DNA of 64,000 bases from a candidate division WOR-3 bacterium (lineage in GTDB: Bacteria; Hydrothermota; Tepidihabitantia; Tepidihabitantales; Tepidihabitantaceae). Location: the NCBI GenBank assembly GCA_024653355.1, contig JANLFQ010000001.1, positions 248,001 through 312,000 on the forward strand, written 5' to 3'. Shown piece after piece: positions 3,360-58,749 of the stretch (position 1 is its first letter; each line of letters starts with the position of its first letter). A program made the position numbers and the translations under genes. The notes under the pieces were generated by a model. That model made no database searches. It had not been told where the DNA came from and saw only the letters and a list, made by a program, of their open reading frames with translations.

Positions 3360-6300
3360 GTAAAGTTAAGCTCAAGGTTTTTCTGGGAATATTGATTTTT
3401 TTTGTGCCCCATCTTTGGGCATACTCGTTGCTGGAAGAGGCGAGGGTTGTTGCCCGGCCTGATTATGTCCTGGGGGTAGTTTTTCTTGAAAGGTGGCGGG
3501 GTGACATCTATCTGGGCGTTGAAAGGGTAATTCCGCTTGATGAGTATCTTGATTATTCAATTAAAGAGGCGGTGATTGGCACCTGGCAGAGTGAGGCGCG
3601 TCAGACAATGGCACGGCGCGAGATGGCGGCGGAGCCAAGCGGTTTGATTCCCGATATTGAACTACCCAAATTACCTTTCCTGGGCGAAGGTTCAAAGATA
3701 GATATCACCGGCAGTGACCGGATAACTCTTGGTGGCAGTCAGACGGTAGTTACAGGCGTGACTCAGACGGTTAATCAACCGTCGCTTTTCCCGGAGTTGA
3801 AGATGGAGCAGCAACTGGCGGTCAGCGTTAACGGCACAATTGGTGAGCGGACCAAGATTACCATTGACCACAATTCAGAGCGAGAGGAGCAGCAGAATAA
3901 AATTAGACTGCAGTACACCGGTACCGAAGATGATGTTGTTCGTTCTATTGAACTTGGGGATACGAAACTGGATATTCCCGGCACGAGTTACACCGGAGAT
4001 TTGCCGGCGCGGCAAGGACTTTTTGGTATTTCGGCAAAGGGTAAAATGGGACCGGTTGACCTGTATGCGGTCGCTTCCCGGGAAGGGTCGCAAAGCCAGA
4101 GCCAGAGTTTTACCGGAAAACGGCGCGTCAAGACCGATACAATCTGGGATGTTGAGTATGTTGCCCGGCGGTTTTATAAACTGCCCGGCGTGGATACCAA
4201 TGAGCGCTTGGTGGGTTTGAGAATTTATATCGACGACCGGAATTCGGGCAACAATCAGGCGGCGGTGAAGGCGATAGCCACCGTATTTCCCCACAATCCC
4301 GATTCAGTGGTGGAGGATAGTAGTTCCTGGTGGAGTTATGACCGGACCGGTGGTGATTTTGACCTCAAGTCACCGGGTATTGATTATGTAGTGCAACCGG
4401 GAAATATCATTGAGTTTCTGAACCCGATTGAACGCAACTATATCATCGGCGCCGTTATCTATAAGGCGACGGACACAATTGGCGGGCAACTGGTGCGCGA
4501 TTCTCTCGTGCTATGTCTGCTTAAACCCGAGGTTACGGATTCTCTTTCCCGTGCCTGGGATTTGGAGCTGCGCAACAGTTATCAATTACCCGAAACCGAT
4601 GTCAAACTGGATGCGATTCAGATATTCCGTTACGACCCCCAAGGGCAACATTCGGACTATGAAACTGACCCTGCGAACCCTTACTTCGGGACGAAGTTTC
4701 TCCAGATTTTGCGGCTGGACCCGGATGGTGACGGTCGGCTACAATATCCTGAGTTTGACAGTAAAACTGGTATTATCCGGTTTCCCGGTTTAAAACCGTT
4801 TGCCGCCGCAGAACTTTCGGTAAAAGATTCAATTATCTACCGGGTCAATGCCGATATTTTGCCCCCGGGTACAGGGCGAAAATATTTTCTGGTCGTTTCC
4901 TACTATTCGGTGACCGAAACCTATTATCTCGGTCAGACCGATATTATGGAAAACTCCGAAAAGATTTATGTCAATGGACAGTTGAAGACGCGCAATGTTG
5001 ATTACTCGATAGATTACAAAACGGGCATTCTGACATTTTTGACGCCATTGCCGCCTGATGCGGACATTAAGGTTACCTTTGAATATCAACCGTGGTTCAC
5101 CCTTACCCAGAGTTCGCTTGTCGGTACACGGGCGGAGTGGATGTTTGCTCCCCAGGGTAAAATCGGTTCCAGTTTTTTCTTTCGTGATGAAGGCATCAGG
5201 GAAGATAAACCGATTCTTGGTTCGGAGCCGTTTCAACGCACCATTGCCGAAACCGATATTGGTTACAGCGTAACTTCGGATGCGGTTACGGCATTTCTTG
5301 ACCGATTGCCGGTTATCTGGGCGCAAGCACCAACGCGGTTTGATTTTCGGACCGAAGGGGCGGTGTCGCTGCCCAATCCCAACACGCGGGGGGTGGCATA
5401 TCTGGACGATTTCGAAGGGACAACAATAATTCGCGATGTTCCGAACACCGCGCTGCTCTGGTCGTTTGCCTCGGTGCCGGTGGGCAAGGATACGGCGCAG
5501 TTCGCTCGTTCGCCGTTAAAATGGTTTAATCCGGCAAAAAAGGTCCGTAAGGACAGTGTATTTGGCTCTAATATCGGTGATGAGGCGAGCGAGACGCAGG
5601 ATATTCTGCGAGTTGTTTTTAGTCCAGACAACTCCGCTTCCTGGGCAGGGATAATGCAAGCGCCCCCCGGCGCCCAAATCGGAATGAATTTTACCGATAT
5701 TGAAAACCTAGAGGTGATTTTGCGCTCGCAGCGGGGAAGAGGTAATTTGCATATTTCAGTTGGCATGGCAATTGATGAAGATGCACCGCGTCGGGCAAAG
5801 GATGGTTCGATTAAAGGGCTCAATGGCAGGCTGGACACTGAAGACCGAAACGGCAACGGGATTCTTGACCAGGACGAAGATACCGGTCTTGATGGTGTGT
5901 TTGGTGCCGATTCTCTCTGGGGCCCAGGTTCATTAGATGATGGTAACGATGATTACGACCCTTATAACAACCAACAGGGCACAGAAAACAATCGTCGGCT
6001 CGATGCGGAAGATTTAGACCGCAACGGTTTTTCTCGTTACAATCACTATTTTGAATATACGATCGCACTGCAGGACGAAAAGTTTCTGACCCCGCTTTAC
6101 AACAACTGGCGACTTTATCGATTGCCTTTACGGGACAGCACCCTATTCAGCAAAATCGGGACACCGAAGTGGGAAGATATAAGAGTGGTTCGGGTATGGT
6201 TCGATGGTTTCGAAACCCCTGATACATTGGAATTATACTCAATTCAATTTGTGGGAAGTAAATGGCGCGACCCCAGAATAACCGATAAGATGGACAAGAG

Positions 6301-37035: not shown

Positions 37036-37614
37036 ATGATGTCTTCAAGCAGGTCGGGTGCCCCAAGAATGGGGCCGCGGCGCGGTGGCCAAAAATCTGG
37101 TTCATTCCAGATGATGCTGTTCCTGGTCGTGGCGGTTCTGGCGGTGGTCGTCATCGCGGTTGTTGCGTTTGGCGGCAAAAAGGGCGGGACCGCGAGGGCG
37201 AGTCGGGAGAAAAAGTCCCGCACCACCACAGTTGCCCAGACGGGCGAGCGTGCAACAAGGCCGACGAAAGTTAAGAGTACCCGGGTGAGAGGGGAGCGAG
37301 AGAGTCGACGGCGATTGACGAAGGAAGAGCGAGCAGCCCTGCGTAAAGAGCGGGCAAGGAAAGAACGGGAAACGGGCCGGGTAACGGTCCGGAGTTCGCG
37401 TGGTGGTTACACCGCAAAACGAAGCACCAAGCCGGTATTAAGGGCAATAATTGCCGAACCAAGTGGCGGACGGGTCGCGGTGATTGGAGAGCGGAGAGTT
37501 AAGGCAGGGGACCAGATTGAGGGGCGCAGGATAACCGAAGTGGGACCGGACAAGGTGAAGGTTGAATATTTCACCAAAACCTACGAGGTAAAACTCAATC
37601 AACCACTTTACTAA
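37036..37614 (+). CDS. Basic single-pass membrane protein with a GspB/PilP-like C-terminal segment
   Basis: 192 residues. A Ser/Gly/Arg-rich cytoplasmic N-terminus is followed by one membrane helix (MMLFLVVAVLAVVVIAVVAF, residues 26-45), a highly charged Arg/Lys/Glu region (about 50-125), and a small beta-rich C-terminus with AEPSGGRVAVIGERRVKAGD and a V-x-Y-x-x-K-T-Y-E-V-K-L end. The C-terminal pattern resembles the short periplasmic domains of GspB/PilP-type secretion or pilus proteins, but the match is by eye only. The strong AAGGAGG supports the ATG at 37036 (or 37039). The following gene overlaps its end. Confidence 0.6.
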   Translation: MMSSSRSGAPRMGPRRGGQKSGSFQMMLFLVVAVLAVVVIAVVAFGGKKGGTARASREKKSRTTTVAQTGERATRPTKVKSTRVRGERESRRRLTKEERAALRKERARKERETGRVTVRSSRGGYTAKRSTKPVLRAIIAEPSGGRVAVIGERRVKAGDQIEGRRITEVGPDKVKVEYFTKTYEVKLNQPLY

Positions 37615-39583
37615 GTCGCGGACAAACTTCTGGTTTGTTTCGTTCGTTTTATTTCTCGGGCTTTTTTCAACCGCCGGTTATTGCCGAGAACTAATTTACA
37701 ACGGGAATTTTGAACTGCCATCAGATTCAGGATGGCAGGTTGTGCGCTGGGGTCTTTTCCCCGACACCGGCAATTGCCGTTTGCGCTGGCAGCACAGTTT
37801 CCATCCGGACCGGGATTTTGAGGTGATGATTCACAAGATGCTGCATCAGGGGATGAAGCTTTATCAGCGCGTGGAAATAAACGATATCGAAAGTTTGGCA
37901 TTTTCCGTTTCCTGTCGCCTCACTGCCAAGAGTGAAAGTGACAGCCTGTTTGCGGCGGCGGCGGTTTGCCTGGAGTTTCTTGATAACTCAGATTCGGTTC
38001 TGGGCGAGACGAGGATTTATGTTGCCACCCGGGGTTGCGATTGGCAGAACAGTCCGCGACTTCATCTCATCCCTGCTCCGGACTCGTTCCACTGGTACGA
38101 TTACCATTTTTTTCTCCGGGATGAACTGGAAAGTTTACCCGGGGTTCAGCCCGAACTGGTTAAGGCGGTTCAAGTCGGGCTGCTCGGGTTTGTCCTTGGT
38201 AACTGTTGAGGGGTTTATCCTGCGGCGAAGGTCTTCGCCGATGACATCTCCCTGCACACGGTAGAAGCGCCGGCGCTGGTTTACAAAACATTCCGGGTTC
38301 GGGACAGCAGCGGCGTCCCGAACGGAAAAATTGACCGGGGAGAAACGGTAGGGTTAGTCCTAATTTTGCGGAACGCCGGAGCGGGTGTTGGTGCTACCAG
38401 TGCCCGATTGGTCAGTCAATCACCTTTTCTTGAGGTAATGGACGGCACCGGGGTTTTTGGACCGGCAGGAACCGGGGAAACAACCGCTTCACTCGTTGAC
38501 CATTTTCAGGTTAGGGCGACGGTTGATGCACCGATTGAGGTGCCGCTTTACTGCCAGTTGTTTATCAGCGGTACCGGATACAGCGATACGATTCTAATAC
38601 CGCTCATTGTCGGGGATTCGCTAAATCTGCCGGTTGGTCCTGACCCTTATGGTTATCGGATTTATGACTGGACCGACTCCTGTTATCAGGAGTTGCCGGT
38701 TTACGACTGGTTTGAACTGCGCGGAGTCGGCGAGGTGTTGACAATCGGTGATGATGAGACGAGATGGCTGGAGTTGCCGGATGATTTCGGTTTCTGGCGT
38801 TATTACGGCATTGACTACCGGATGATTTCAATCTGCGCCAATGGCTGGATTGCGGCGGATACAACCAGGCGGTGCGATTTTAACAATGTGGAACTGCCCT
38901 ATTCTGGAGCGCCACCTAATATCGTTGCCTTTCTCTGGGACGATTTAGCGCCCAGCCGCTATGGCGCAATTCTCTACCATTACGACCGACCGCGGCACAG
39001 GTTTGTAATCCAGTTTGACTCGGTCTCTTATTTCGGCATACCCGACCGCTGGGAAAAGGTTCAAATTCAACTGTTTGACACCGCGGTTGCCGGTTCAGAA
39101 CAGGACAATCCGATTGCGATTCAATTCCATACGGTCAATGATTTTCGTTCGGTCACGGTCGGGCTGCAAAATCGGGATGGTAGTGCCGGTTTGACCTATC
39201 TCTGGAATGGCAACTATCCCCGCACCGCGGCGTCCTTGATACCGGCACGGGCGTTGTTCATTAAACGGTCAATTTTAACCGGGCAGGCAGAAAGTTTGCG
39301 GGAAATGTTCTTTGATGAGGCGCCGAAGGTGATGCCCAATCCGTTCCGGCAAGAGATGGTATTGCAACTCAATCCGGTACGCGCGATTTCCGGTGCGGCA
39401 AGGATTTATCAATCGGATGGCAGGTTGGTGAGGAGGATAAGTCCGGAAAGGTCAAGACCAGGGCGCTATCTCTGGGATGGTAAAGATGAACTGGGCAAGA
39501 AGGTTGCGCCGGGTTTGTATTTTATTGTTGTGCCGGATGGAACCGGTCAATTCCGCCCGACGAAGGTGATATTTTCACCGTAA
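37598..39583 (+). CDS. Secreted multidomain T9SS cargo-type gene interrupted by in-frame TGA at 38207 (Sec candidate or pseudogene)
   Basis: One continuous reading frame runs from 37592 to 39583 with a single in-frame TGA (38207-38209, codon 204 if counted from 37598). Before it: a signal peptide (FWFVSFVLFLGLFSTAGYC), then a CBM-like sandwich starting ELIYNGNFELPSDSGW. After it the same domain continues to VFADDISL, followed by a CARDB-like repeat (NGKIDRGETVGLVLILRNAG), the roughly 220-residue module shared with the C25 proteins (PYGYRIYDWTDS to IPARALFIK), and a T9SS-type sorting domain (VMPNPFRQEM, ARIYQSDGRLVRR, APGLYFIVV). No ATG, GTG or TTG precedes the signal peptide in frame; the best start is ATC at 37598, 8 nt after GAGGT. 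A GTG at 37742 would lack the signal, and a TTG at 38366 begins the second half only. Either recoding (see hairpin) or a two-lesion pseudogene. Confidence 0.6.
38223..38240 (+). promoter_or_regulatory. SECIS-like hairpin after the in-frame TGA
   Basis: CGGCGA (38223-38228) and TCGCCG (38235-38240) pair around the six-base loop AGGTCT (38229-38234). The bacterial SECIS of E. coli fdhF has the same apical loop AGGUCU, with its GGU 18 nt after UGA; here GGT begins after 20 nt. The stem can extend by one A-T pair into the loop. Protein-coding constraint could produce this by chance. Confidence 0.45.
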
Positions 39584-39687: not shown

Positions 39688-42600
39688 ATGAACAGGCATG
39701 TGTTTTTAGTACTGATGGCGATTTTTGCCATCGGTATTGGACAGACGGAATGGCTGGCGGTCAACGGTGCGCCCGGTGTTCCGGCTGTCAAAATCCTGGA
39801 GCAGAGTTCAAGGAGCACAACTTTTGAAGTCACCGTGCCGGGACTGGAACTGGAACGGGTTGCGGTTGATGGTCAGGAGTTTGTGCGTCTGAACCTGCCG
39901 GGTGAGGTAATGGCGGTTTTAGATGAGGGTAAGCCCCAGGTGCCCAAAGTGTCGGTCCTTTTAGGAATACCGCTGGGGGCACGGATTAGTGCCCGGGTGC
40001 TCAGTAAGGAGACCGAGCGGTTTAAGGTTGACCGGATTTACCCGTTGCAGCCGCCCTTGCTGGACAATCAGGAACCAGGACCGCTGGTGATTGATCACGA
40101 TTTCTACGCCCAGGATGTTTCTTACCCGGGTAAGGATTGGGCACTAATCAATACCGGTGTGTGGCGCGATTTAGGGGTGGCGAATTTGCAGGTTTATCCG
40201 GTTCAGGTCAATCCGGCAAAAGGGGAAATTGAGGTGACCAAGCGGATTCTGGTTCGGGTTGACTATTCGGGCGGAAATTATCCGGAGTTTATTGCCGACT
40301 GGATGGTGCCCCTTTATAGCCGCTATGTGGACAACTTCAATTTCCTGCCGGTTAAGCCGTTAACCGATTATACGCCCGGAGTGCGCTATCTTGTATTTTG
40401 CAATGCAAAGTTTGACACCTGCGTTTATCTTAACGACTCGCTGCTATCCTGGGTTCATCAGCGCGGTTATCAGGTCCGGAAAATCACCAAGGCGAGTTTT
40501 ACCGCCCAGGAGATTAAAGACTCAATCCGGGCTGAGTACAATAGGAACAACCCGGCGCTCTTACGCTGGGTGCTCCTGGTCGGCGAGTATGGCGACATTC
40601 CGATGGGCTCTTATTCCGGTGTGGGCCGGTCTGACTTCTGGTATTCCGACATTTTGCCCTGGCCCAGCGGCGACAACTATCCGGAAATCGGCATCGCCCG
40701 GCTTTCGGTGAAAAACCCGGTTGACCTTTCCCAGCAGATTTCTAAGATTCTTAAGTACCAGAAAAATCCGCCTTCAACCAACAACTGGCTTGACAAACTT
40801 TCAATGCCGGCGCATTCCGAGCAGTATCCGGGCAAATATTCGGGCTGTGTGCGCGGTATTTACTTTATGCCCAAGCCTTACTGGAACCCATCGGTTGTTG
40901 AAACTATTATGGGTTATTACACCGGGAATACCACAGTGACCAATGCCATAAATGAGGGCCGGGGTATTGTTGCATATCGTGGACACGGTGACTATATGGA
41001 GTGGTGGGAGTGGGGCACCGAAGGTTCCTGGTACAACTCACATGTGAACGCATTGACCAATGGTGACCTGACGCCGGTGGTTTACAACATCGCATGCAAC
41101 TGTGGCGACATCTATCAGGACACCTGCCTTTCGGAAAAGTGGATGAACAAATATCCGGGCGGTGCGGTGGCAAGTTTGGCCGCAACTCAAGCGTCTTATA
41201 CCTTACCGAACCACGGCATCTGCTCAACCTTGGTGCGGGCAACCTGTGACACCTGGACAATCACCGTGCCCGGGGTGCGCGACTACGGTCCGACCGTTTT
41301 CAACCTTGCCGATATCAAGTGCTATGGTGTTGATGCCTATGTGGCAAAGTACTGGCCCGGTTCGCCTTATCCTTACAACATCTGGATGTATGTAATGCTG
41401 GGTGACCCGTCAATGCCGGTCTGGGCTGGTGGTATGCCGCAGTCACCGAGTGTGACTCTACCGGATTCAATTCCCCTGGGACCATACAACCTTAATGTCA
41501 CGGTGCGGGTTGGCAGCAGACCGGTTGTTGGCGCGCTGGTCTGTGCCTACAAAGAGCCGGACATCTATGTCTCGGAGCGGACCGATGCTGCTGGGGTTGC
41601 GGTTCTGGCGCTTAACGCCAGCACACCGGGTGATGTAAGGATTACGGTGAGCGAAGGTCATGCTGAGCATTTCGTTCCTGGTGCGCAACATACACCGATT
41701 TTACCGTATACAACAACCAGGCCGGTGGGTGGTGGTGGAACACCACAGCCATATGTGGTGTATGTATCCAATATGGTGATTGATTCACCACCCGGCGGTA
41801 ACAACAACGGTAGGTTTGACCCGGGTGAAACGGGCAAAATCATCGTGACCCTGCGCAATGCCGGCAACGCCACGGCACAGGGTGTCTCCGCACGCCTGAA
41901 ATCGAGTAACAACCTGTTTGTAATTACTGATTCTACTGCAAATTATGGCAATATCCCGCAGGATTCTTTAAGAAATAACCGCTCTGACCCGTTCATCGCC
42001 CAGGCAAACGGTTCAATACCGCCGGGAACGGTTGTGGTCTGCACACTCAAGGTCCACTCGGACAATTACCAGCACGACTGGACCTACACATTTGCATTGC
42101 AGGTGGGACAGCCACCAATGCCCGGGCAGTTTATGGTTGACCTTGATACCGGTTCGGTGCTCCTTTCGGTGTGTGCCATCGGTTCCATCGGTTATGACGA
42201 GCCGGCAACTGATTTGGGTCAGGGTTTCAAGGTACCGAAAACTGCGGCTTCCTGTCTCTACTTCGGCGCCTTGATGGCAGGTAACTCTCCCACCTATTTA
42301 GTGGACCACTTCTATGGACAACCGGCAAGTTCTGGGACAAACCACGACTGGCGGACTCCGGACAGTTTCCGGATGGTGACGCCACCGGCACCAGCGGATG
42401 AGCACTGGCTCAACACGCTGACCGATGGGGGCCATTCAACGCCCAAGGGTCTGCAGGCGAGTCAGCATCTTTATATGAATAGCGAAGGTGGTTATGACGA
42501 CTGGGCGGTTTTGACCTATGAGTTCACGAACAACGGTTCCCAGCCGATCAACGGATTTTATACCGGGATAATTGCGGACTTTGATATCGGTTCATCACCG

Positions 42601-43272
42601 ACCACCAACATCGTAGTCTCGGACACGGTACGCCGCGCGGTATTGATGCGCCAGCAGTCAAGTGAAAACCCGAGTGCGGGTCTGATTCTGCTTGAGCCCG
42701 AACGGTATGCCAACATCGGTGCGCTGGACCACGCCATCTATGTTTATCCGGACTCCTGTATGACCGATAACCAGAAGTTCCGGGTTCTTAATGGCACAAT
42801 TGTTCAGCGCAACTCCAATCGGGCTTACGACTGGTCGGTGTTTGTTTCTGCCGGACCAGTGGATTTACCGGTTGGCGGGACCTGGCGGGTGGCGTTTGGC
42901 GTTGTTGGTGCGACCACGGTCAACGGGTTCTGGGAGGCAGCGGACAGTTGTCAGCGCTGGTATGTGGCGAACCTGCTCGGTGTGAAAGAAGAGGCGGGTG
43001 AAGTTCAGGTCAGTGCGGCAAAACCGTTGATTATCAGTCCGAACCCGTTCCGTAACGGTGCCTACATCAACTACTTCACCCCGGAAAAGGGCAATCTGGA
43101 ACTGGTCGTGTTTGATGCGGCGGGTCGGGTTGCTGAGCAGCACAGTTTTGCTGTTGAACCCGGAGCCGGGCGGTTCTTCTATAAACCAGGAAGGCTTGCC
43201 AATGGCGTTTACTTCCTGAAGGTTCGGGCACCGAACTCAAGTGCGGTCGCCAAGTTCTTAGTGGTTGAGTAG
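39688..43272 (+). CDS. Gingipain-family (C25) cysteine peptidase with T9SS sorting domain
   Basis: 1194 residues. A signal peptide (VFLVLMAIFAIGIGQ) is followed by a C25-type propeptide (VPGLELERVAVDG, PQVPKVSVLLGIPLGA), the catalytic domain from about 230 to 580, an Ig-like region, a CARDB-like repeat (NNGRFDPGETGKIIVTLRNA, near 705) and a C-terminal sorting domain (ISPNPFRNGAYINY, VVFDAAGRVAEQ, NGVYFLKV). Catalytic residues match gingipains: His433 in AYRGHGDYMEW and Cys470 in NIACNCGD. Gingipains are secreted by T9SS and cleave proteins at the surface. Monocistronic, with its own promoter and a strong terminator. Of the three C25 genes in the window this is the only one with both catalytic residues. 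Confidence 0.88.
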   Translation: MNRHVFLVLMAIFAIGIGQTEWLAVNGAPGVPAVKILEQSSRSTTFEVTVPGLELERVAVDGQEFVRLNLPGEVMAVLDEGKPQVPKVSVLLGIPLGARISARVLSKETERFKVDRIYPLQPPLLDNQEPGPLVIDHDFYAQDVSYPGKDWALINTGVWRDLGVANLQVYPVQVNPAKGEIEVTKRILVRVDYSGGNYPEFIADWMVPLYSRYVDNFNFLPVKPLTDYTPGVRYLVFCNAKFDTCVYLNDSLLSWVHQRGYQVRKITKASFTAQEIKDSIRAEYNRNNPALLRWVLLVGEYGDIPMGSYSGVGRSDFWYSDILPWPSGDNYPEIGIARLSVKNPVDLSQQISKILKYQKNPPSTNNWLDKLSMPAHSEQYPGKYSGCVRGIYFMPKPYWNPSVVETIMGYYTGNTTVTNAINEGRGIVAYRGHGDYMEWWEWGTEGSWYNSHVNALTNGDLTPVVYNIACNCGDIYQDTCLSEKWMNKYPGGAVASLAATQASYTLPNHGICSTLVRATCDTWTITVPGVRDYGPTVFNLADIKCYGVDAYVAKYWPGSPYPYNIWMYVMLGDPSMPVWAGGMPQSPSVTLPDSIPLGPYNLNVTVRVGSRPVVGALVCAYKEPDIYVSERTDAAGVAVLALNASTPGDVRITVSEGHAEHFVPGAQHTPILPYTTTRPVGGGGTPQPYVVYVSNMVIDSPPGGNNNGRFDPGETGKIIVTLRNAGNATAQGVSARLKSSNNLFVITDSTANYGNIPQDSLRNNRSDPFIAQANGSIPPGTVVVCTLKVHSDNYQHDWTYTFALQVGQPPMPGQFMVDLDTGSVLLSVCAIGSIGYDEPATDLGQGFKVPKTAASCLYFGALMAGNSPTYLVDHFYGQPASSGTNHDWRTPDSFRMVTPPAPADEHWLNTLTDGGHSTPKGLQASQHLYMNSEGGYDDWAVLTYEFTNNGSQPINGFYTGIIADFDIGSSPTTNIVVSDTVRRAVLMRQQSSENPSAGLILLEPERYANIGALDHAIYVYPDSCMTDNQKFRVLNGTIVQRNSNRAYDWSVFVSAGPVDLPVGGTWRVAFGVVGATTVNGFWEAADSCQRWYVANLLGVKEEAGEVQVSAAKPLIISPNPFRNGAYINYFTPEKGNLELVVFDAAGRVAEQHSFAVEPGAGRFFYKPGRLANGVYFLKVRAPNSSAVAKFLVVE

Positions 43273-49416: not shown

Positions 49417-50666
49417 AAGGGGCTATCAGGTTGATTTTACGGGCTACGCTTTTATTAACTTTGTTCAGTATCGGTGGGGGTGTTTACTGTATCCGCCCTT
49501 TGCCGGCACCGGGTAAGGTGGCGTTAAACCTGCCAGCGCCTGAGGCGATTTTGAACTCGGCGGAAGTCGTGTTTCAGTGGGATGATGTCGGTGCCGACCG
49601 TTATCTTTTCCAGGTTGGCAAGGATAGCAAGTTTAAGACAGTTGTGGTTGAAGATACGCTTACAACCCATTCAGTGAGTATCAAATTTAAGACCGATGGT
49701 ACCTATTTCTGGCGGGTGAAAGCACAGAGTGCTGAAGGGGTCTGGGGTGACTGGTCCGAAACCGGTTCGTTTAGGATTCAACGGTTTACTGTGGTTGGTG
49801 CGGTCAAGACTACCGGTTATCCGCACAGAATCTCTATCGCCGGAAACCGGGCTTATGTGGCGGACGGGCAAGCCGGTTTGGCGGTTTTTGATGTTTCCGA
49901 TCCCGAGGCGCCGAGGTTTGTTGGCGGCTATATGGACTCTTTGAATGTCGCCTGGGGCGTTACGGTGCAGGACAGTCTGGTGTTTCTTGCCTATGGTTAT
50001 AAGGAACTTTTGATTTTAAATGTCCGTCAACCCGAAAGTATTAAGGTTACCGGTGTTTTAGAGTATCCGCAACCCGGTTATGGTTACAATCTGGTATTGC
50101 AGGACACCTGGGTTTACATTGCGGCTGGTGCGCAGTTTATCGCCGCTTTGGTGACAGACCCGCGTTATCCAAACCTCCGATTCCAATACTACTATCCGCG
50201 TGACTGCCGGGATGTTGCCCTGGTTACACAGCGAGCTTTTGTCGCCTGCGAACAGTTAGGGATTGCCGTCTGGCGCCTGGACACTTTTCCATTTGTTCAG
50301 GTGGGGAGTTTTGATACACCGGGAAACGCCCGGGGTGTTGGGGTTCGGGGTAACCATATTTTTGTTGCTGATGGGCGTAATGGGCTGATGGTCCTCGATG
50401 GCACGGAACCGAACAATATGCGGTCTTTGAGCACATTGAGCCTTGATGGCTATGCCAATTCAATTCTCGTTGATGATAGTCTGGTGATAGTTGCCTGTGG
50501 TTCAGGGGGTGTGGCGATTGTGAACTGTGCTCAGCCCGAATCACCGGAACTAATATCACAGATAAAGACGCCGTATGCTTATGCCGCAGGAGTGACCGCA
50601 AATCGTGACTATTACCTTATTTGCGACCGGGATTGGGGAATTGTTACCGTGAGAAAGGGGCAGTGA
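49413..50666 (+). CDS. Secreted LVIVD-repeat propeller with a fibronectin-like N-domain
   Basis: 417 residues. A signal-type N-terminus (LILRATLLLTLFSIGGGVYC) precedes a fibronectin type III-like domain (about 45-130; ILNSAEVVFQWDDVGADRYL, GTYFWRVKAQSAEG) and then six to seven LVIVD-type repeats such as NRAYVADGQAGLAVFDVSDP and NHIFVADGRNGLMVLDGTEP. LVIVD repeats form propellers on bacterial surfaces. Start GTG at 49413 lies in the stop of the barrel gene (GTGA); the gene ends in TGATG with the next one. Confidence 0.75.
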   Translation: MKGAIRLILRATLLLTLFSIGGGVYCIRPLPAPGKVALNLPAPEAILNSAEVVFQWDDVGADRYLFQVGKDSKFKTVVVEDTLTTHSVSIKFKTDGTYFWRVKAQSAEGVWGDWSETGSFRIQRFTVVGAVKTTGYPHRISIAGNRAYVADGQAGLAVFDVSDPEAPRFVGGYMDSLNVAWGVTVQDSLVFLAYGYKELLILNVRQPESIKVTGVLEYPQPGYGYNLVLQDTWVYIAAGAQFIAALVTDPRYPNLRFQYYYPRDCRDVALVTQRAFVACEQLGIAVWRLDTFPFVQVGSFDTPGNARGVGVRGNHIFVADGRNGLMVLDGTEPNNMRSLSTLSLDGYANSILVDDSLVIVACGSGGVAIVNCAQPESPELISQIKTPYAYAAGVTANRDYYLICDRDWGIVTVRKGQ

Positions 50667-53600
50667 TGATGACCGGGTTGGGGATTTTGTTTCTTGTCTT
50701 TAACGCGTCCAGTTTAATGGACAGTCCGGTTGCGGTTTCGGTGCACGAGCGGACATTGAATATCACTGTAACACCTGAGGAGTCGATTAGCGCTAATGCG
50801 ATTCTTGTGCCCGCACCGGGCGCAATTTTGCCGGCAGTTTCTTCAGCGCAAAATTGTCAGTGGTTCTTTGGCAGGGTGATGAACGCCGGCGGAATTGAGG
50901 TTGTGCCGCTGATTGTTGTGCCGGAAGGGGATAAAAAAGCGGAGTTGAAACTGGATTTGACAACAGCGCTTGACAGGGGTTTGGTAAATAACCCGATGGT
51001 GCAGTTGTTATTTCCCTGGTTGAGCGGTTGGGAAGTGAGTAATGAACAGGGTTATCTGATTATTGTGCCGGACGACTTCTATGAGAAAGTTCTGCCTTTA
51101 GCCCGCTGGAAGGAACTTAAAGGTTTTAAGGTGTGGATAAAGAAGACATCAGAGACTGGAACGCAGCGCGATGAGATAAGGAATTTCATTCGCAATGCCT
51201 ATCTGAACTGGACACCGAAACCGACTTATGTGCTCCTGGTCGGCGCAATAAACAAAATTCCCGCTTTCCCGACTCCGGGTGCGACTTCGTGCGTAACCGA
51301 CCACACATACTCACTGGTAGACGGTGATGACCATCTTGCGGACCTGTTTGTCGGCAGGCTGCCTGCCGCCAATGGGTCAGAACTGGACTGCATTGTGGCG
51401 AAGATTGTCAATTACGAATCAAACCCTTATATGGCAGATACCAGTTGGTTTCATCAAGCGTTGATGGTCGGCACAAGTTATCAGGAAGGCGGCACACCCG
51501 CGGTTACAGCACTGGTCACAAAGCGACGCATCCGCGAGTATCTTTTTAATCGTGGTTTTAATAAAGTTGATACGGTATTCTATCCGCCCACGCTTTCTGG
51601 TCGGGGACCGGTTGACAGCGCGGTCAACTCCGGAGTTTCTTTTATCAATGGCAGAGGCTGGGGGCAGACAAGGATGTGGAACTACCCGCAGTTTGAGATC
51701 AACGATGTTTACAACCTGAACAATGGATGGAAGTTGCCGGTAATTACCAGTCTGTACTGCGGCACCGGAAATTACGGTGCGAACCCATGTTTTGGTGAGG
51801 CGTGGCTGAGGGCGGGAACACCAACCAGTCCCAAGGGAGGAGTTGCTTTCTGGGGGACATCTTATACCGGTACCTCAACCCGCTGGAACAACTGTATGGA
51901 CTACGGAATTTATCGGGCGATATTTGACCGTAAAGTCACCACCCTGGGACCGGCGATGTACTGCGGAAAGATTGAGCAGTTGATAAACTTCCCTCTGCCC
52001 GAAGACTCTTCGGACCTGATTCTATATTTTTACACTTACAACCTTCTGGGTGACCCATCAATGGAGATGTGGACCACGGTGCCCAGAGAGATTACCGTTT
52101 CCTACCCAACGGTCTATCCCACCGGCAACATCTCATTTCCGGTTTATGTGCAGGACAGTTATGGCAATCCGGTAACAGACGCTCTGGTGTGTCTTTACAA
52201 ATCGGGTGAGGTGCATTCGGTGCTGCGTACCAACAGTTCGGGCTGGGCACGGTTTAATATTACCACAACCACGTCGGATACGCTCTTTGTGACCGTTACC
52301 GGGGAAAATCTTAAACCCCATCTGGGTTTCAGTCGCGGTGAACAGAGGGGAGTTCTGGTGGGCGTTGCTAATTGCGCGCCGGAGACTGTCCAACCTGCCG
52401 AGTTAGCCACTGTTTCGGTAACCTTGAAAAATTTTGGTGTTGCGCAGCCGGCGCAGAATGTCCAGGCAACCCTTTTTTCCCTTGACTCTTTTTCCACGGT
52501 TGCGGATTCAATGCGCTCATACGGTTCAATCAATCCTGGGGAAGAAAGAACCGCTGCGCCGTTTGTGGTTCAGATTGCACCATCATGTACCAGTAAGCAA
52601 CGAGTAAATTTTGGGTTGAGGATAACAAGTGGTGACAGTGTCTGGACAACGGGTTTCTCATTGGATGTTGTCGGTCCGACGGTGGCGGTAACCGGTTTAA
52701 CGGTCTACGATGTTAATGGATTTCTTGACCCGGGCGAGACAAGAGAGTTGTCAATACGGGTGCTGAATCGCGGTGATAGGGAAGCGCAAAATGCGACGGG
52801 AATTCTACGTTCTTCTAACAACCGGGCGATAACGGTTGTTGACTCCACAGGGTATTACGGCACGGTTGGTGTTGGTGCGACCGGAGAAAACAGCGCCGAC
52901 CGGTTTGTAGTAAGTGCGGCACCAGACATCGGTGTTGGGCGAAAGTTTCTCTTATGGCTGGTTTTCAGGGGTTCGGATGGTTTTGAGCAGAAAGTAGGAT
53001 TTCCGATTACGGTTGGTCAGCCGGGTCCGAGCGCGCCAACAGGTCCAGACTATCACGGATATTACGGCTACGACGATACCGATATCGGTTATCAGGAGCG
53101 ACCGGTTTACGACTGGGTGGAAATTGACCCGGGGCAGGGTGGTTCTGGCACCCGTGTTGAACTGGGCAATGACCAGGCGGTGCCGGTTGATTTACCTTTT
53201 ACCTTCAAGTTCTATGGAACTGAGTATCGGATTATCTCAATTGCTGACAACGGTTACATCGCGATGGGCAGCACAAATTTCAGCGACCAGTACAATTGGC
53301 ACATCCCTTCGGCTCAAGGACCGGACGGCTTGATAGCGGTGTTCTGGGACGATTTTCGGACTGACACATTGGGAGCACCCGGGGTTTTCTACTATTACGA
53401 CGAGCCGAATCATCGTTTTATTGTTGAGTGGAGCCGGGTGTATCATATTCACGGTTTTCGAAGGCCCTATGTCGGTGAGCAGCAAACATTCCAGGCGATT
53501 CTTTTTGACCCGGCTTATCATCCAACGAAGACCGGCGATGGTGCAGTGGTTTTTCAGTATCTCTTTGTTCAGAACGACGACAGTCTGTGGGAGAATAGTC

Positions 53601-54052
53601 ACAACTATGCTACGGTTGGTATTCAGAGCCCGAGCCACAACGATGGCTTGGAATGGACATTTGCCGGAAGTTATCCCGTAACCGCGGCTGAAGTTGTGCC
53701 GGGGCGGGCGATTAAGTTCACAACCAATCCGCCCGATACATTCACCTTTATCAGTGAAAACAAGGGCAGACATTTCCCCGTCTGTTTTGAAGCGAAACCA
53801 AATGTTGCCCGGACGAGTGTTGCGTTTTTTGTCCGTGGTATAGAGGAAGCCGCGTTGCAGATTTTTGATGTTACAGGAAGGCAGGTGCGAGAGTTTGAAG
53901 TGCCCAACGCTCAACCGCAAAGTTTTTTCTGCTGGGATTTAAAAGACAACAAAGGTAAGAATGTTTCCGGTGGCGTTTATCTGGTGCGGTTGACGGGAAC
54001 AAGCCGCGCTGGTAAAATTTTATTGAACAGGGTGGTTGTCGTTGTTCGTTAA
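50666..54052 (+). CDS. C25-family protein lacking the catalytic His, with T9SS-type C-terminus
   Basis: 1128 residues from the ATG at 50666 (another frame extension to 50621 lies inside the previous gene and would destroy the signal peptide). Signal LGILFLVFNASSLM; gingipain-like domain with GTSYQEGGTPAV; at the position of the catalytic His (YxGHG in gingipains) it has INGRGWGQ, so Arg330, while the Cys is kept (Cys365 in SLYCGTGN). Then Ig-like and CARDB-like repeats (NGFLDPGETRELSIRVLNRG), the 220-residue shared module (HGYYGYDDTDIG to VVPGRAIKFT) and a FlgD/T9SS-type end (LQIFDVTGRQVREF, WDLKDNKGKNVSGGVYLVRL). Probably a non-catalytic surface protein. Confidence 0.75.
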   Translation: MMTGLGILFLVFNASSLMDSPVAVSVHERTLNITVTPEESISANAILVPAPGAILPAVSSAQNCQWFFGRVMNAGGIEVVPLIVVPEGDKKAELKLDLTTALDRGLVNNPMVQLLFPWLSGWEVSNEQGYLIIVPDDFYEKVLPLARWKELKGFKVWIKKTSETGTQRDEIRNFIRNAYLNWTPKPTYVLLVGAINKIPAFPTPGATSCVTDHTYSLVDGDDHLADLFVGRLPAANGSELDCIVAKIVNYESNPYMADTSWFHQALMVGTSYQEGGTPAVTALVTKRRIREYLFNRGFNKVDTVFYPPTLSGRGPVDSAVNSGVSFINGRGWGQTRMWNYPQFEINDVYNLNNGWKLPVITSLYCGTGNYGANPCFGEAWLRAGTPTSPKGGVAFWGTSYTGTSTRWNNCMDYGIYRAIFDRKVTTLGPAMYCGKIEQLINFPLPEDSSDLILYFYTYNLLGDPSMEMWTTVPREITVSYPTVYPTGNISFPVYVQDSYGNPVTDALVCLYKSGEVHSVLRTNSSGWARFNITTTTSDTLFVTVTGENLKPHLGFSRGEQRGVLVGVANCAPETVQPAELATVSVTLKNFGVAQPAQNVQATLFSLDSFSTVADSMRSYGSINPGEERTAAPFVVQIAPSCTSKQRVNFGLRITSGDSVWTTGFSLDVVGPTVAVTGLTVYDVNGFLDPGETRELSIRVLNRGDREAQNATGILRSSNNRAITVVDSTGYYGTVGVGATGENSADRFVVSAAPDIGVGRKFLLWLVFRGSDGFEQKVGFPITVGQPGPSAPTGPDYHGYYGYDDTDIGYQERPVYDWVEIDPGQGGSGTRVELGNDQAVPVDLPFTFKFYGTEYRIISIADNGYIAMGSTNFSDQYNWHIPSAQGPDGLIAVFWDDFRTDTLGAPGVFYYYDEPNHRFIVEWSRVYHIHGFRRPYVGEQQTFQAILFDPAYHPTKTGDGAVVFQYLFVQNDDSLWENSHNYATVGIQSPSHNDGLEWTFAGSYPVTAAEVVPGRAIKFTTNPPDTFTFISENKGRHFPVCFEAKPNVARTSVAFFVRGIEEAALQIFDVTGRQVREFEVPNAQPQSFFCWDLKDNKGKNVSGGVYLVRLTGTSRAGKILLNRVVVVVR

Positions 54053-54070: not shown

Positions 54071-55360
54071 ATGAAGAGGTTTGCCTTAATCCTAAGTTTT
54101 TTAGCAATTTTCGCGTCTTCCTGGGCGCTCATCTTTCACGGTGTGGCAACGCCGCCCGGTGGCGAGCACGCCTGGGTGGTGACGATTGAAACTACCGGCG
54201 TGTTTCACTCCACCGATTTTGGTCTATCCTGGGAACCGGTCGACATTCCGACAATACGGGACTTTTTCGATGTTTTCTTTTTAACACCGGATTCGGGCTG
54301 GACCTGTGGCAGGTCTGGTGACATCTGGCGAACAACCAATGGCGGCGATAGCTGGTCAAGGGTAAATCTTGGCGGTCCAAAGCATGCGGCACGCATCAGG
54401 TTTTTTGACCCCGAGTTCGGCTGGGCAGCAGGCGGTGACATTGTTCAGTTAAAAAGTACCACCGCCGGTGCCGAGTGGGAACAGGTTTTTTTGCGCGTGC
54501 CACCGTTTCCTGCCGGCGACTCCGCTGAGTTCCAGGGGGTCTGGTTTATTAACCGTGATTATGGCTGGCTGGTTGCCGGACACTGGCCCAGTGGAGATAC
54601 ATTTTTAGGTGGTCAGGGAATTATTGCTCGAACAAGGGATGGAGGTATTGCGGAAAACTGGGAGGTGGTGCGGCGCGATAACAACTACGACTTTTACGAT
54701 GTTTATTTTGCAGACAGTTTGCGAGGCTGGGTTGTAGGCGGTGATGACCGCAATTTCCGGGCAGTGGTTTTACATACGACCGATGGCGGAAACACCTGGG
54801 TTGAGCAGACAGTTCCGGCTGAGGCTCGGTTTCTGCGGGCGTTGAAGTTTGTCAGTCCAACAAAGGGTTGGGCTTGTGGCAGGAACGGTACAATAATCTA
54901 CACTTCAGACGGCGGAAACACCTGGGTTAGCCAGTTTTCAGGTGCTGAGAGCACACTTTTTGACATCGACTTTGCCGATTCACTGCGCGGGATGGCGGCG
55001 GGTAACGGTGTTGTGGTTAAAACGATTGATGGTGGTGCAAACTGGCAGGTCTGTCTTAGTGGATTGCAGGAACAGAGTAATGGGCGGTTGTTTAACGGGC
55101 AGGCTATTCGGTGTCTCGCGACAATGGGGCGCAGGATAACTTTCATAATCGATGAGCAAAATCGTAATGGCGCGATTGAGATTTATGACATGTTCGGACG
55201 CCAGGTGGCAACGGTTAAGACCGGTGCCAACAGAAAGTTTGTTGTCTGGAATGGCAGTGGTTTTGATGGTCAGCCGGTTAAAACCGGTGTGTATTTCTGC
55301 CGATTGCCGGGTGTTTCGTCGGGTGTCAAATTTGTTCTAATCGGAAGCGAAGGTAAATGA
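54071..55360 (+). CDS. Secreted Ycf48/BNR-type propeller with T9SS-type sorting domain
   Basis: 429 residues: signal peptide (FALILSFLAIFASSWA), six to seven BNR-type repeats (RTTNGGDSW, HTTDGGNTW, YTSDGGNTW, KTIDGGANW among them) to about residue 335, and an 85-residue C-terminal domain with IEIYDMFGRQVATV, FVVWNGSGFDGQPVKTGVYF and a KFVLIG end, the T9SS/FlgD-Ig type. AAAGGAG at 54056-54062 supports the ATG. It lies between two C25-family genes and overlaps the second by 4 bp. Probably a surface adhesin or scaffold. Confidence 0.75.
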   Translation: MKRFALILSFLAIFASSWALIFHGVATPPGGEHAWVVTIETTGVFHSTDFGLSWEPVDIPTIRDFFDVFFLTPDSGWTCGRSGDIWRTTNGGDSWSRVNLGGPKHAARIRFFDPEFGWAAGGDIVQLKSTTAGAEWEQVFLRVPPFPAGDSAEFQGVWFINRDYGWLVAGHWPSGDTFLGGQGIIARTRDGGIAENWEVVRRDNNYDFYDVYFADSLRGWVVGGDDRNFRAVVLHTTDGGNTWVEQTVPAEARFLRALKFVSPTKGWACGRNGTIIYTSDGGNTWVSQFSGAESTLFDIDFADSLRGMAAGNGVVVKTIDGGANWQVCLSGLQEQSNGRLFNGQAIRCLATMGRRITFIIDEQNRNGAIEIYDMFGRQVATVKTGANRKFVVWNGSGFDGQPVKTGVYFCRLPGVSSGVKFVLIGSEGK

Positions 55361-58300
55361 AAAACCGGTTGGTAAGTTTCTTTTTAATTCTGGGGTTAGG
55401 TTTTGCCGAACAAGGTGCAAGGTATCTTATAATCTCCCATCCTGCCTATATCCCGATAGTTCAACCGCTCGCCGAATGGAAGACAAAGAAAGGGGTGAAG
55501 GCAAAGGTCGTTTCTGTATCTGAAATTGGTTCAACCCCTGCGCAAATCCAGGCTTATATTCGGAATGCTTATAACAACTGGCCCATAAAACCGGAGTTTG
55601 TGCTTTTAGTTGGTTCACCCAGTCAGATTCCAAGTTACGGTAATTCTACCGACTGTTATTACGGCGATATGGGCGGAGATTATAAAATGGAGATTTCGGT
55701 CGGCAGGTTTTTTGCGATGAACGCCCGGGAGTGCAGTACAATGGTTGCCAAGGTCATTACCTATGAGAAACCGGACCTGCAAGCCATTGACACTCTTTAC
55801 TTTCTTAAAGGGACAACGGTGGTAAACGAGGATCAACCACCCGACCCTTATTATCAGCCGGATTCCAGACTGGTGCGAAGTTACTGGCAGAATGCGGGCT
55901 ATGTTTTAACCGAAAGTCTGTTGAACATTGCCGGGCACAACACCAGTAATGTAAACGCTGCCGGCATTGATGGCAGAATGTTTATCACTTACCGGGGACA
56001 GGGGGTTTATGACTGGTGGTCGCCTTTTAATGGTGTGGACCCTTCAACCTGGAATAACGGGGCAAAGTTACCAATTGTGGTTTCGGGCACCTGTGCAATG
56101 ATTGACCTTTCTCCTTATGGCGGAGGACAACACGGCGACCGATTTGTTCGGGCAGGCACACCGACAGCGCTCGGTGGTGTAATTGCCTATTTTGGAACAA
56201 CAAATAGCGGGTCACACATTTCGGACCGGCGCGGTGCCTGTTATCGGGGTTTTTTTACCGCCCTGTTTCAGGAAGGTGAGTACCGTCTTGGTCCGGCAAC
56301 GCTGCGGGGCAGGTTCTGGGTTGATTCAATTTTCCACGAGCAGGCGCGTTATCTGGAGTGGAATCTCCTTGGTGACCCGGAGTTGTGCGTCTGGACCGGT
56401 GTTCCAAGAATGGTTACAGTGGTGTTTGATTCGGTAATTGAGATGGCACCGCAGGAGATGGTTGTGACCGTTTTACAAAACGGGGTTCCGGTTGCCGGTG
56501 CGGTGGTGTGTCTCTCGATGGATAGCACAATCTATGCGGTCGATACAACCGATTTTCAAGGAGAGGCTCGCATCTTGGTGAATCCGTACCACATCGGGAC
56601 GATGGATTTGGTTGTTACCGGGAGAAATATCCTGCCTTACGAGGGACAGGTACGGGTTATTGCCAGCGGCATGCCGTTTATCGTTACCGTGGGCAGTTCG
56701 ATTTACGATTTTGGGGGAAATCATGATGGCAGGATTAATCCCGGGGAGCGGTTTGGGTTGACAGTCAGATTGAAAAATGTTGGTGATGTTAGCGCTACCG
56801 GTGTCACCGGTCTGTTAAGGGTGTCGTCATCCGCGGTGCAGGTATTTGATAGCGTATCAAGCTACGGGACAATAGCACCAGACTCAACGGGAGATGGTGA
56901 TCAGTATGAATTGTGGGTTGACAGTTTGGTGCCCGATGGGTTTGTTATCCCGGCAACGATTCTGGTGCGGGATGATGTTGGAGACTCCTGGAACTGTTCA
57001 ATTAATATGTTTGTGCGGGCGGGTTTAATCAGAGTTAACACCGCGTTCTTTCTTGATTCGCTCCCCGGAGGAAACGGAAATGGCAGAGTGGGACGAATGG
57101 AAGCAGGTCGGGTTCAGGTGGCACTGATAAATCAAGGTGGTGGAGCGCTTGACAGAGTGCAGGGGATTATTACCTGCCTAGATACGAATGTGGCGGTTGT
57201 AGATTCTTCCGGTTATTATGGCAGGATTGACTCGGGTGCGATAAACCTTGGTTCGCGGGACCGGTTTGCGATTTCTGCGGGACCGGGGCTTATGCGAAAC
57301 CAACCGGTACGTTTTTTTGTGAGGGTTCAGGGAGATGGTGGTACATACCATTATTCCGATACATTTAGTTTTGAACTATCAGGCGAAGAGGGGGTCCCAA
57401 GCGAACCAACCGGTCCTGATGGTTATGGGTACTGGTGTTATGACGACACCGATACCGCTTCAGGGCAGGCACCGATTTACCAGTGGCTGGAACTGGCACC
57501 GCCCGGACCAGGGCTGGTGATTCCCGGCGTTTCCGATTCGGATGCGGTGACAATAACATTAGCCATGCCGTTTACATTTCAGTATTATGGCACAAGAGAC
57601 AATTTTGTTTCAATTTGTTCCAACGGCTTTCTGACACTGGGATATACCACTTATCGTTTTGGCTCCAATCGGCCGATTCCAGATACCGCTGGACCGCCTT
57701 TAATGATTGCGCCTTTCTGGGACGATTTGAATCCCGATGAAACCCGCAATGGATACGGAACCGCATACCAGTATTTTGACACCGCAAATCACCGCTGGAT
57801 TGTTGAGTTTAAAGATTTTGCACATTACAATCAGCCTAACATTCGAGAGAGTTTTCAGGTAATCTTTTATGACCCGGTTTACTTTCCGACGCCAACCGGA
57901 GATGGTGAGATAGTATTTCAATATCAACGTGTTTCGCTTGGGTCAAGTTGTACTGTTGGTATTGAAGACGGAACAGAAACGCGCGGCATCCAGTATCTTT
58001 ATAACAACAGTTATGCTCCTACCGCTGCCTATCTTCAGGCGAACCGGGCGATAAAATTCACTACCAACCCGCCCCGAAACATCGTAAGTCCCTGGCTGGT
58101 GCTTTCTGGTGTTCAGGTGAGCGATACCCTTGAGGGCAATGGCAATGGACTATGGGAAGCGGGCGAACGGTTGGAGGTTGCCGTTTTTCTGCAAAATCGG
58201 GGTAGTTATGACGCAGTCAACAGCGTGATTGCTCTGAATTCAGGGGATGGCGATGCGGTTATTTACGATTCAATCTCGGTTCTGGGGTTGATTCCTCCGG

Positions 58301-58749
58301 GCACGACCGTTAACAACATTACCAATCCGTTTCGTTTGGAGATTGTGCCTCAGCCGGCAGATTCTATTCTTGAGTTTAGCCTGAGAGTTCAGGCAGAAGG
58401 GTACATCACTTTAACCTACTTTTCACTCGGGATTTCGGGTTTAACCGGCGTAGAGGAAAAACCGACCGGGTTAAATAAATTCGGAATGGAAAAAATAAGG
58501 CCCAATCCACTCAGGGGTTCTACGGTAGTTTATTATGCTCTTGCTCAAGCCGCACAGGTGGATTTGGCTTTGTTTGATGCTCTGGGTCGAAGGGTCAAGA
58601 CAATTGAACGCGGTGTCAAGCCCGCTGGTGGGCATCAGGTTCGTCTTTCTTGCGATGGACTTTCCAATGGGGTCTACTTCTGCCGACTTCGGGCAAAAGA
58701 TGATAAGGGAGAGAGGAAGTTTATTCAGAAGGTGCAGTTTGTTCGTTGA
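55357..58749 (+). CDS. C25-family protein with His-to-Gln change, CARDB repeats and T9SS sorting domain
   Basis: 1130 residues with a short signal peptide (LVSFFLILGLGFAEQGA) and no propeptide: the C25 domain starts almost at once (ARYLIISHPAYIPIVQPLAE). Catalytic His is replaced (Gln215 in TYRGQGVYDWW) while Cys246 is kept (VSGTCAMID). Three CARDB-like repeats follow (HDGRINPGERFGLTVRLKN, NGNGRVGRMEAGRVQVALIN, NGNGLWEAGERLEVAVFLQN); the shared 220-residue module (YGYWCYDDTDT to LQANRAIKFT) lies between the second and third. The end is a T9SS sorting domain (IRPNPLRGSTVVYY, LALFDALGRRVKTI, NGVYFCRL). Likely a pseudo-peptidase used for binding or assembly. Confidence 0.78.
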   Translation: MKNRLVSFFLILGLGFAEQGARYLIISHPAYIPIVQPLAEWKTKKGVKAKVVSVSEIGSTPAQIQAYIRNAYNNWPIKPEFVLLVGSPSQIPSYGNSTDCYYGDMGGDYKMEISVGRFFAMNARECSTMVAKVITYEKPDLQAIDTLYFLKGTTVVNEDQPPDPYYQPDSRLVRSYWQNAGYVLTESLLNIAGHNTSNVNAAGIDGRMFITYRGQGVYDWWSPFNGVDPSTWNNGAKLPIVVSGTCAMIDLSPYGGGQHGDRFVRAGTPTALGGVIAYFGTTNSGSHISDRRGACYRGFFTALFQEGEYRLGPATLRGRFWVDSIFHEQARYLEWNLLGDPELCVWTGVPRMVTVVFDSVIEMAPQEMVVTVLQNGVPVAGAVVCLSMDSTIYAVDTTDFQGEARILVNPYHIGTMDLVVTGRNILPYEGQVRVIASGMPFIVTVGSSIYDFGGNHDGRINPGERFGLTVRLKNVGDVSATGVTGLLRVSSSAVQVFDSVSSYGTIAPDSTGDGDQYELWVDSLVPDGFVIPATILVRDDVGDSWNCSINMFVRAGLIRVNTAFFLDSLPGGNGNGRVGRMEAGRVQVALINQGGGALDRVQGIITCLDTNVAVVDSSGYYGRIDSGAINLGSRDRFAISAGPGLMRNQPVRFFVRVQGDGGTYHYSDTFSFELSGEEGVPSEPTGPDGYGYWCYDDTDTASGQAPIYQWLELAPPGPGLVIPGVSDSDAVTITLAMPFTFQYYGTRDNFVSICSNGFLTLGYTTYRFGSNRPIPDTAGPPLMIAPFWDDLNPDETRNGYGTAYQYFDTANHRWIVEFKDFAHYNQPNIRESFQVIFYDPVYFPTPTGDGEIVFQYQRVSLGSSCTVGIEDGTETRGIQYLYNNSYAPTAAYLQANRAIKFTTNPPRNIVSPWLVLSGVQVSDTLEGNGNGLWEAGERLEVAVFLQNRGSYDAVNSVIALNSGDGDAVIYDSISVLGLIPPGTTVNNITNPFRLEIVPQPADSILEFSLRVQAEGYITLTYFSLGISGLTGVEEKPTGLNKFGMEKIRPNPLRGSTVVYYALAQAAQVDLALFDALGRRVKTIERGVKPAGGHQVRLSCDGLSNGVYFCRLRAKDDKGERKFIQKVQFVR

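Follow-up and report, generated by a model that had tools for sequence, protein, structure and literature searches.

The window, a stretch of 64,000 nucleotides from the genome of a candidate division WOR-3 bacterium (G000; 1.88 Mb, 98% complete), contains a long open reading frame that is interrupted by a single in-frame TGA and is described here as the probable gene of a selenocysteine (Sec) protein (Table 1). The TGA is preceded by TGT (Cys), and inspection of the frame shows that it is then open to the TAA at 39581-39583. The next gene (39688-43272) encodes a C25-peptidase-like protein with a type IX secretion system (T9SS) tail and resembles the part of the window protein that follows the Sec; two large genes further on (50621-54052 and 55357-58749) are also similar to this part.

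Table 1. Positions in the window of the Sec gene, its parts and associated features.
Feature	Position	Strand	Basis or remark
sprA, T9SS translocon gene	3500-7300	+	TIGR04189, 455 bits summed; equals G000:C1:251500-255300
Upstream gene, 192 aa	37036-37614	+	3' end overlaps the Sec gene; C-terminal end recognisable beside the Sec gene in G001, G002 and other family genomes
Candidate translation start	37585-37600	+	GAGGT (37585-37589), 8 nt, ATC (37598-37600); sequence inspection; overlaps the end of the upstream gene
Predicted selenoprotein gene, family A member, read through TGA	37598-39583	+	661 codons plus TAA if the start is 37598; open frame with one TGA
Probable signal peptide, INHFTKSRTNFWFVSFVLFLGLFSTAGYC	37598-37684	+	Hydrophobic N-terminus, by inspection
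Predicted Sec domain, CBM-like beta-sandwich, ~200 aa	37685-38284	+	AlphaFold2, Foldseek, weak Pfam CBM_4_9
TGA, very probably read as selenocysteine	38207-38209	+	Domain residue 175, in the loop between the last two strands (161-171, 180-192)
Candidate SECIS hairpin, CGGCGAAGGTCTTCGCCG	38223-38240	+	GGT begins 20 nt after TGA
Middle beta-rich region	38285-39295	+	Also in other exported proteins of the genome, including C25-peptidase proteins
C-terminal T9SS-like sorting domain	39296-39580	+	PorZ tail 5e-5, FlgD_ig 1e-4, below cut-offs

The fold of the Sec domain was modelled with AlphaFold2 from an alignment of 104 rows, which gave a beta-sandwich with a pLDDT of 94.3 and a pTM of 0.90 (the model of the full-length window protein has a pLDDT of 84). 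Foldseek matched this domain to CBM61, CBM16, CBM4 and CBM22, with TM-scores of 0.4-0.65 at 9-16% identity. Pfam gave no match for the window domain and a weak CBM_4_9 similarity in 17 of the 104 family members (E from 3e-4 to 0.1), none of them over the cut-off; similarly, no NCBIfam model covers the Sec domain, NTTRR-F1 at 0.01 being the only match. The domain is thus predicted, with high confidence, to be a CBM-like beta-sandwich, and carbohydrate binding is putative.

Most family members have both a signal peptide and a T9SS-like tail, and their N-terminus is in most cases comparable to that of the window protein, usually with an ATG or GTG start. Three layouts are found: proteins of ~590-760 aa that combine the Sec domain, the middle region and the T9SS-like tail; proteins of ~280 aa with the Sec domain and the tail; and proteins of ~190 aa that consist of the Sec domain alone, some of which have lipobox-like leaders. 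In the paralogue L017, the tail scores 30 bits with the Por_Secre_tail model TIGR04183, over its cut-off of 23. We infer that the window product would be exported by its signal peptide and would then probably reach the cell surface via the type IX secretion system.

The translation start of the window gene is unusual. Frame inspection revealed no ATG, GTG or TTG start in frame upstream of the Sec gene, and this is true of all three genomes that represent the genus; the missing start codon flagged in a previous, sequence-only reading of this DNA is therefore real. The arrangement GAGGT-8 nt-ATC is common to the window gene and to its counterpart in G001, one of two other genomes of the genus, and is absent in the second, G002; we infer it to be the best, still unproven, candidate for the start, at ATC 37598. 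The start codon is GTG in the relatives found in G109 and G110, and ATG in most other family members. The idea that translation begins in the upstream gene and enters the Sec gene by programmed frameshifting was rejected: in G002 the two genes share one frame with stops between them, so such a mechanism is not conserved.

To describe the family, a profile of the Sec domain was compared with 147 genomes of the phylum (candidate division WOR-3/Stahlbacteria), nearly all of which are metagenome assemblies. The domain occurs in 50 of them, with up to nine matches per genome, and 104 distinct full-span domains were retained from the fetched loci, a number which is a lower bound on the size of the family. 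TGA lies at the Sec site in 103 of these domains (102 with exactly one TGA, one with a second), and Trp (TGG), from which the TGA had been suspected to derive by mutation, is found at this site in none. On these counts, the window gene is no isolated oddity and belongs to a set of 104 or more distinct copies in the phylum. Orthologues in both same-genus genomes carry TGA at the identical codon, and all three genomes of the genus also contain a paralogue that reads YSG[TGA]GTPVAEVSADDISL, with the hairpin GGCGGAGGTCTCCGCC. Several genomes have tandem runs of two or three family Sec genes, observed at L092 (G086:C5:75000-83400), L100, L111, L116 and L120.

The sole full-span member without TGA, L145 (1104-1670, minus strand; G108:C1:2500103-2500669), reads SCPPPFDSVRVLAD; a Cys lies close to the Sec site, the hairpin has been lost as well, and the host genome, G108, contains eight Sec copies. 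Judged from its sequence, L145 is a natural case of Sec loss. The customary though not obligatory criterion for a selenoprotein, Cys homologues at the Sec position, thus yields one candidate in 104. A distant CBM-like protein without TGA, L203 (G157:C185:3169-3573; ~32-37 bits), has QCGMPYC near the equivalent loop and is a possible Cys outgroup of the family. The domain with two TGA codons, L101 (1675-2259, minus strand; G084), carries the second at the otherwise near-invariant Trp17, which points to a decaying copy or a sequencing error.

Outside the phylum, a search with a 19-sequence subset of the alignment as query recovered the domain at least from records that bear the labels Thermoanaerobaculales and Eisenbacteria. 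These copies share the TGA and the hairpin with those of the phylum, and SelA is present in both carrier genomes. In the group to which the Eisenbacteria record belongs, the domain was found in 3 of 47 genomes, as four domains that all have TGA. No relative was found in viral contigs.

The second element at the locus is the candidate SECIS. The hairpin, its AGGTCT loop and the distance of 20 nt between TGA and GGT, all reported in the sequence-only reading, are present. RNA 38207-38245 folds with a minimum free energy (MFE) of -13.9 kcal/mol into a 7-bp stem with a GGUC loop; the pair that closes this loop is A-U, and the loop is therefore the same as AGGTCT. The bacterial SECIS model comprises an apical loop of 3-9 nt on an upper stem of 4-16 bp, a G in the first two loop positions, a distance of 16-37 nt from the UGA to the apical loop, and an MFE of -7.5 kcal/mol or lower (PMC13188914). 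The window copy has 7 bp and 4 nt, with six pairs kept across the family, and its GGT starts 20 nt after the UGA, a distance whose range across the family is consistent with the model. The loop is GGTC or (A)GGTCT in 92 of 104 members, AGTT in 8, GGTT in 3 and AGTC in one, the TGA-less copy; the MFE is within the limit in 102 of 103 members. Fold energy alone was dropped as evidence for a SECIS, being unremarkable (z -1.2 to -1.8; -1.8 for the window sequence).

The case for the predicted hairpin is instead its conservation and covariation, with no weight placed on energy. Stem positions 1-5 are paired in 100% of the family members. Across 84 distinct 24-mers, 99.6% of the cells are paired, and two-sided changes occur in four of the six pairs; the compensatory two-sided cells number 55, against 11 expected in shuffles, and none of 500 shuffles matched this value. 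When the partners were slid along as a control, the covariation signal was destroyed. At the pair formed by the Ala wobble position and the wobble position of its partner codon, G-C is found 89 times, A-T 13 times and C-G twice; this covariation is not explained by the protein, because a third-position change is silent at Ala. The protein in turn tracks the stem, with the paired versions A-K-V-F-A, A-E-V-S-A, A-R-V-L-A, A-W-V-Y-A and A-Q-V-C-A and a few wobble versions, such as A-E-V-F-A; in the window gene, the hairpin would double as the codons for A-K-V-F-A. In the host genome, a covariance model of the element matches the window gene and its paralogue only.

These observations bear on the possibility that the TGA is a true stop, or that the gene is a pseudogene or contains a sequencing error. 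Such an explanation accords with the window copy's lack of a standard start codon and with the use of TGA at the end of 15 of 95 family genes, but it conflicts with the TGA at one codon in 103 of 104 domains from 50 genomes, with the covarying hairpin, and with the last strand of the Sec domain fold, which in the AlphaFold2 model is encoded 3' of the TGA. In addition, comparison of the window gene with that of G001 indicates purifying selection both before the TGA (dN 0.07, dS 0.58; dN/dS ~0.12) and after it (dN 0.11, dS 0.59; dN/dS ~0.18). This strong selection on both sides upholds the proposal that the frame across the TGA encodes one domain of one protein; two separate genes split at the TGA were considered and dropped, as the domain runs through the codon. 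The recurrence of the TGA in independent genomes, together with dN/dS on both sides, rules out the pseudogene and the sequencing error that had been held against Sec, and the probability left to this whole group of explanations is negligible.

The host genome has the machinery that decoding would need. All of the components for which the sequence-only reading proposed a search were found: selA, a full-length selB (387 bits), selC (tRNA-Sec, 74 bits) and two copies of selD. One selD directly follows selB and has an in-frame TGA itself (CAG[U]ASKLS). The two selD loci are C3:220021-222854, with the TGA copy beside selB, and C3:28006-28923, with the copy without TGA. The presence of selA, selB, selD and tRNA-Sec indicates that the organism decodes UGA as Sec. 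Across the phylum, SelA was detected in 45 of 50 carriers of the domain versus 15 of 97 non-carriers (Fisher p = 3e-19, a test in which shared ancestry is ignored), and the 82 genomes without SelA among the non-carriers yielded no copy of the domain in either Sec or Cys form. Among the five carriers that lack SelA, a tRNA-Sec exceeds the cut-off in four, in G068 at just 48 bits; in G078, a SelA fragment and no tRNA-Sec were found. The selA gene lies within ~10 kb of a family gene in six genomes, and at ~0.4 kb in G076.

A codon that is in frame and read through could also be translated independently of selenium, with a different tRNA or general readthrough supplying Trp or Cys. This is very improbable, since TGG never occurs at the site, the sole non-TGA copy has lost the hairpin, and the carriers have SelA. 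UGA is moreover an ordinary stop in these organisms, as had been claimed, because 15 of the 95 family genes terminate with it. The conserved UGA, the covarying RNA, the full Sec machinery, the linkage to SelA and the purifying selection across the UGA argue instead for Sec insertion, and on this genomic evidence there can be little doubt that the UGA of the window gene is read as selenocysteine. In the proposed mechanism, SelB with Sec-tRNA(Sec) would read UGA 38207-38209 as Sec, directed by the hairpin at 38223-38240, which would place the residue in a loop near the C-terminal edge of the CBM-like beta-sandwich.

The Cys that precedes this residue had been taken to form a Cys-Sec pair. Such a pair exists in the window gene, and as a general feature of the family it does not hold: the residue immediately preceding Sec is Cys in 57 of 103 members. 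Cys88 is commoner in members without the preceding Cys (33 of 46, versus 10 of 57 with it; Fisher p = 3e-8), which would be in favor of a selenenylsulfide between Sec and a neighbouring Cys as the working part of the domain. However, on the tree Cys174 changes 11 times, and no matching change of Cys88 is seen in independent pairs, so that the count is explained by relatedness; Cys174 and Cys88 as alternating partners of Sec were dropped after this tree test. Sec persists as the Cys is gained and lost, and indeed as nearly everything close by varies. A vicinal Cys-Sec bond is thus not required, and a selenenylsulfide as the working part is unlikely, although it keeps an appreciable share of the probability.

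The near absence of Cys forms suggests that the chemistry of the Sec residue is poorly replaced by sulfur, as in surface redox reactions or the binding of soft metals or metalloids. To a redox centre outside the cell we give an even chance, and a soft-metal- or metalloid-binding centre outside the cell is a less likely candidate; a structural or other role accounts for the rest. Alternatively, the UGA might serve as a selenium-dependent switch, with a short product if selenium is scarce and a full-length protein with its T9SS tail otherwise, the Sec residue itself being of minor importance. The T9SS tail does lie 3' of the UGA, and readthrough therefore also decides surface export. Nonetheless, this alternative is improbable: the Sec loop is conserved in the fold, a truncated domain would miss its last strand, and the tail-less members of ~190 aa retain the UGA with just a few residues after it. 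This position of the UGA in the domain-only members makes a structural role less likely as well. More generally, and on a tentative footing, Sec at this position may define a new class of extracellular selenoenzyme, a surface beta-sandwich with a catalytic or metal-binding Sec that Cys can hardly replace and that would help to keep the Sec trait in the phylum.

No CBM-like secreted domain is among the 119 prokaryotic selenoprotein families of a 2026 catalogue (PMC13188914). Literature searches combining selenoprotein with Stahlbacteria, WOR-3, type IX secretion and carbohydrate-binding module returned no report of the family, no Sec-containing CBM and no described T9SS-exported selenoprotein, although a passing mention elsewhere is possible. 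By its sequences, the Sec-domain family is apparently an undescribed, new and nearly Sec-exclusive selenoprotein family. The authors of deep-Sep stated that their method may miss selenoproteins without Cys homologues (PMC12013277), a limit which fits this family; a nearly Sec-exclusive class may escape predictors that filter by homology, and more such families may hide as truncated genes. With its 104 or more distinct members, the present family would extend Sec to a fold and a compartment for which none had been catalogued. In addition, the variants K-V-F, E-V-S and R-V-L point to an RNA element that dictates protein sequence, a clean system in which to part RNA constraint from protein constraint, and the role of selenium outside the cells of uncultured anaerobes becomes a testable question.

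The proposed system can be compared with known ones at several levels. With the CBM_4_9, CBM61, CBM16 and CBM22 domains, the Sec domain shares the beta-sandwich fold and a weak profile similarity; it differs from them in the Sec that it would carry in the loop between the last two strands, and no CBM family exceeds its cut-off. Like T9SS cargo with a Por_Secre_tail (TIGR04183), the protein has a probable signal peptide and a T9SS-like C-terminal domain, with sprA in the genome. As in the SECIS/SelB decoding of Escherichia coli fdhF, the UGA is followed by a short hairpin with an AGGTCT loop. The fdhF element contains GCAGGTCTGC, and a search for a 41-mer of it matched 5388 of 5426 E. coli genomes, within annotated fdhF in the matches listed; GGT lies 18 nt after TGA there and 20 nt here, which agrees with the loop identity and spacing given beforehand. 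In contrast to the fdhF fold, the upper stem is longer in the Sec-domain family and no conserved lower stem reaches back towards the UGA; the distance to the Val codon GTC also ranges from 18 to 27 nt among family members. The catalogued selenoprotein families have in common with this one a UGA, a SECIS and the Sec machinery, and the motifs CU and SGUG also occur in unrelated families among them, such as SaoL and selenobacteriocin (PMC13188914); what sets the Sec-domain family apart from these is that its Cys homologues are almost absent.
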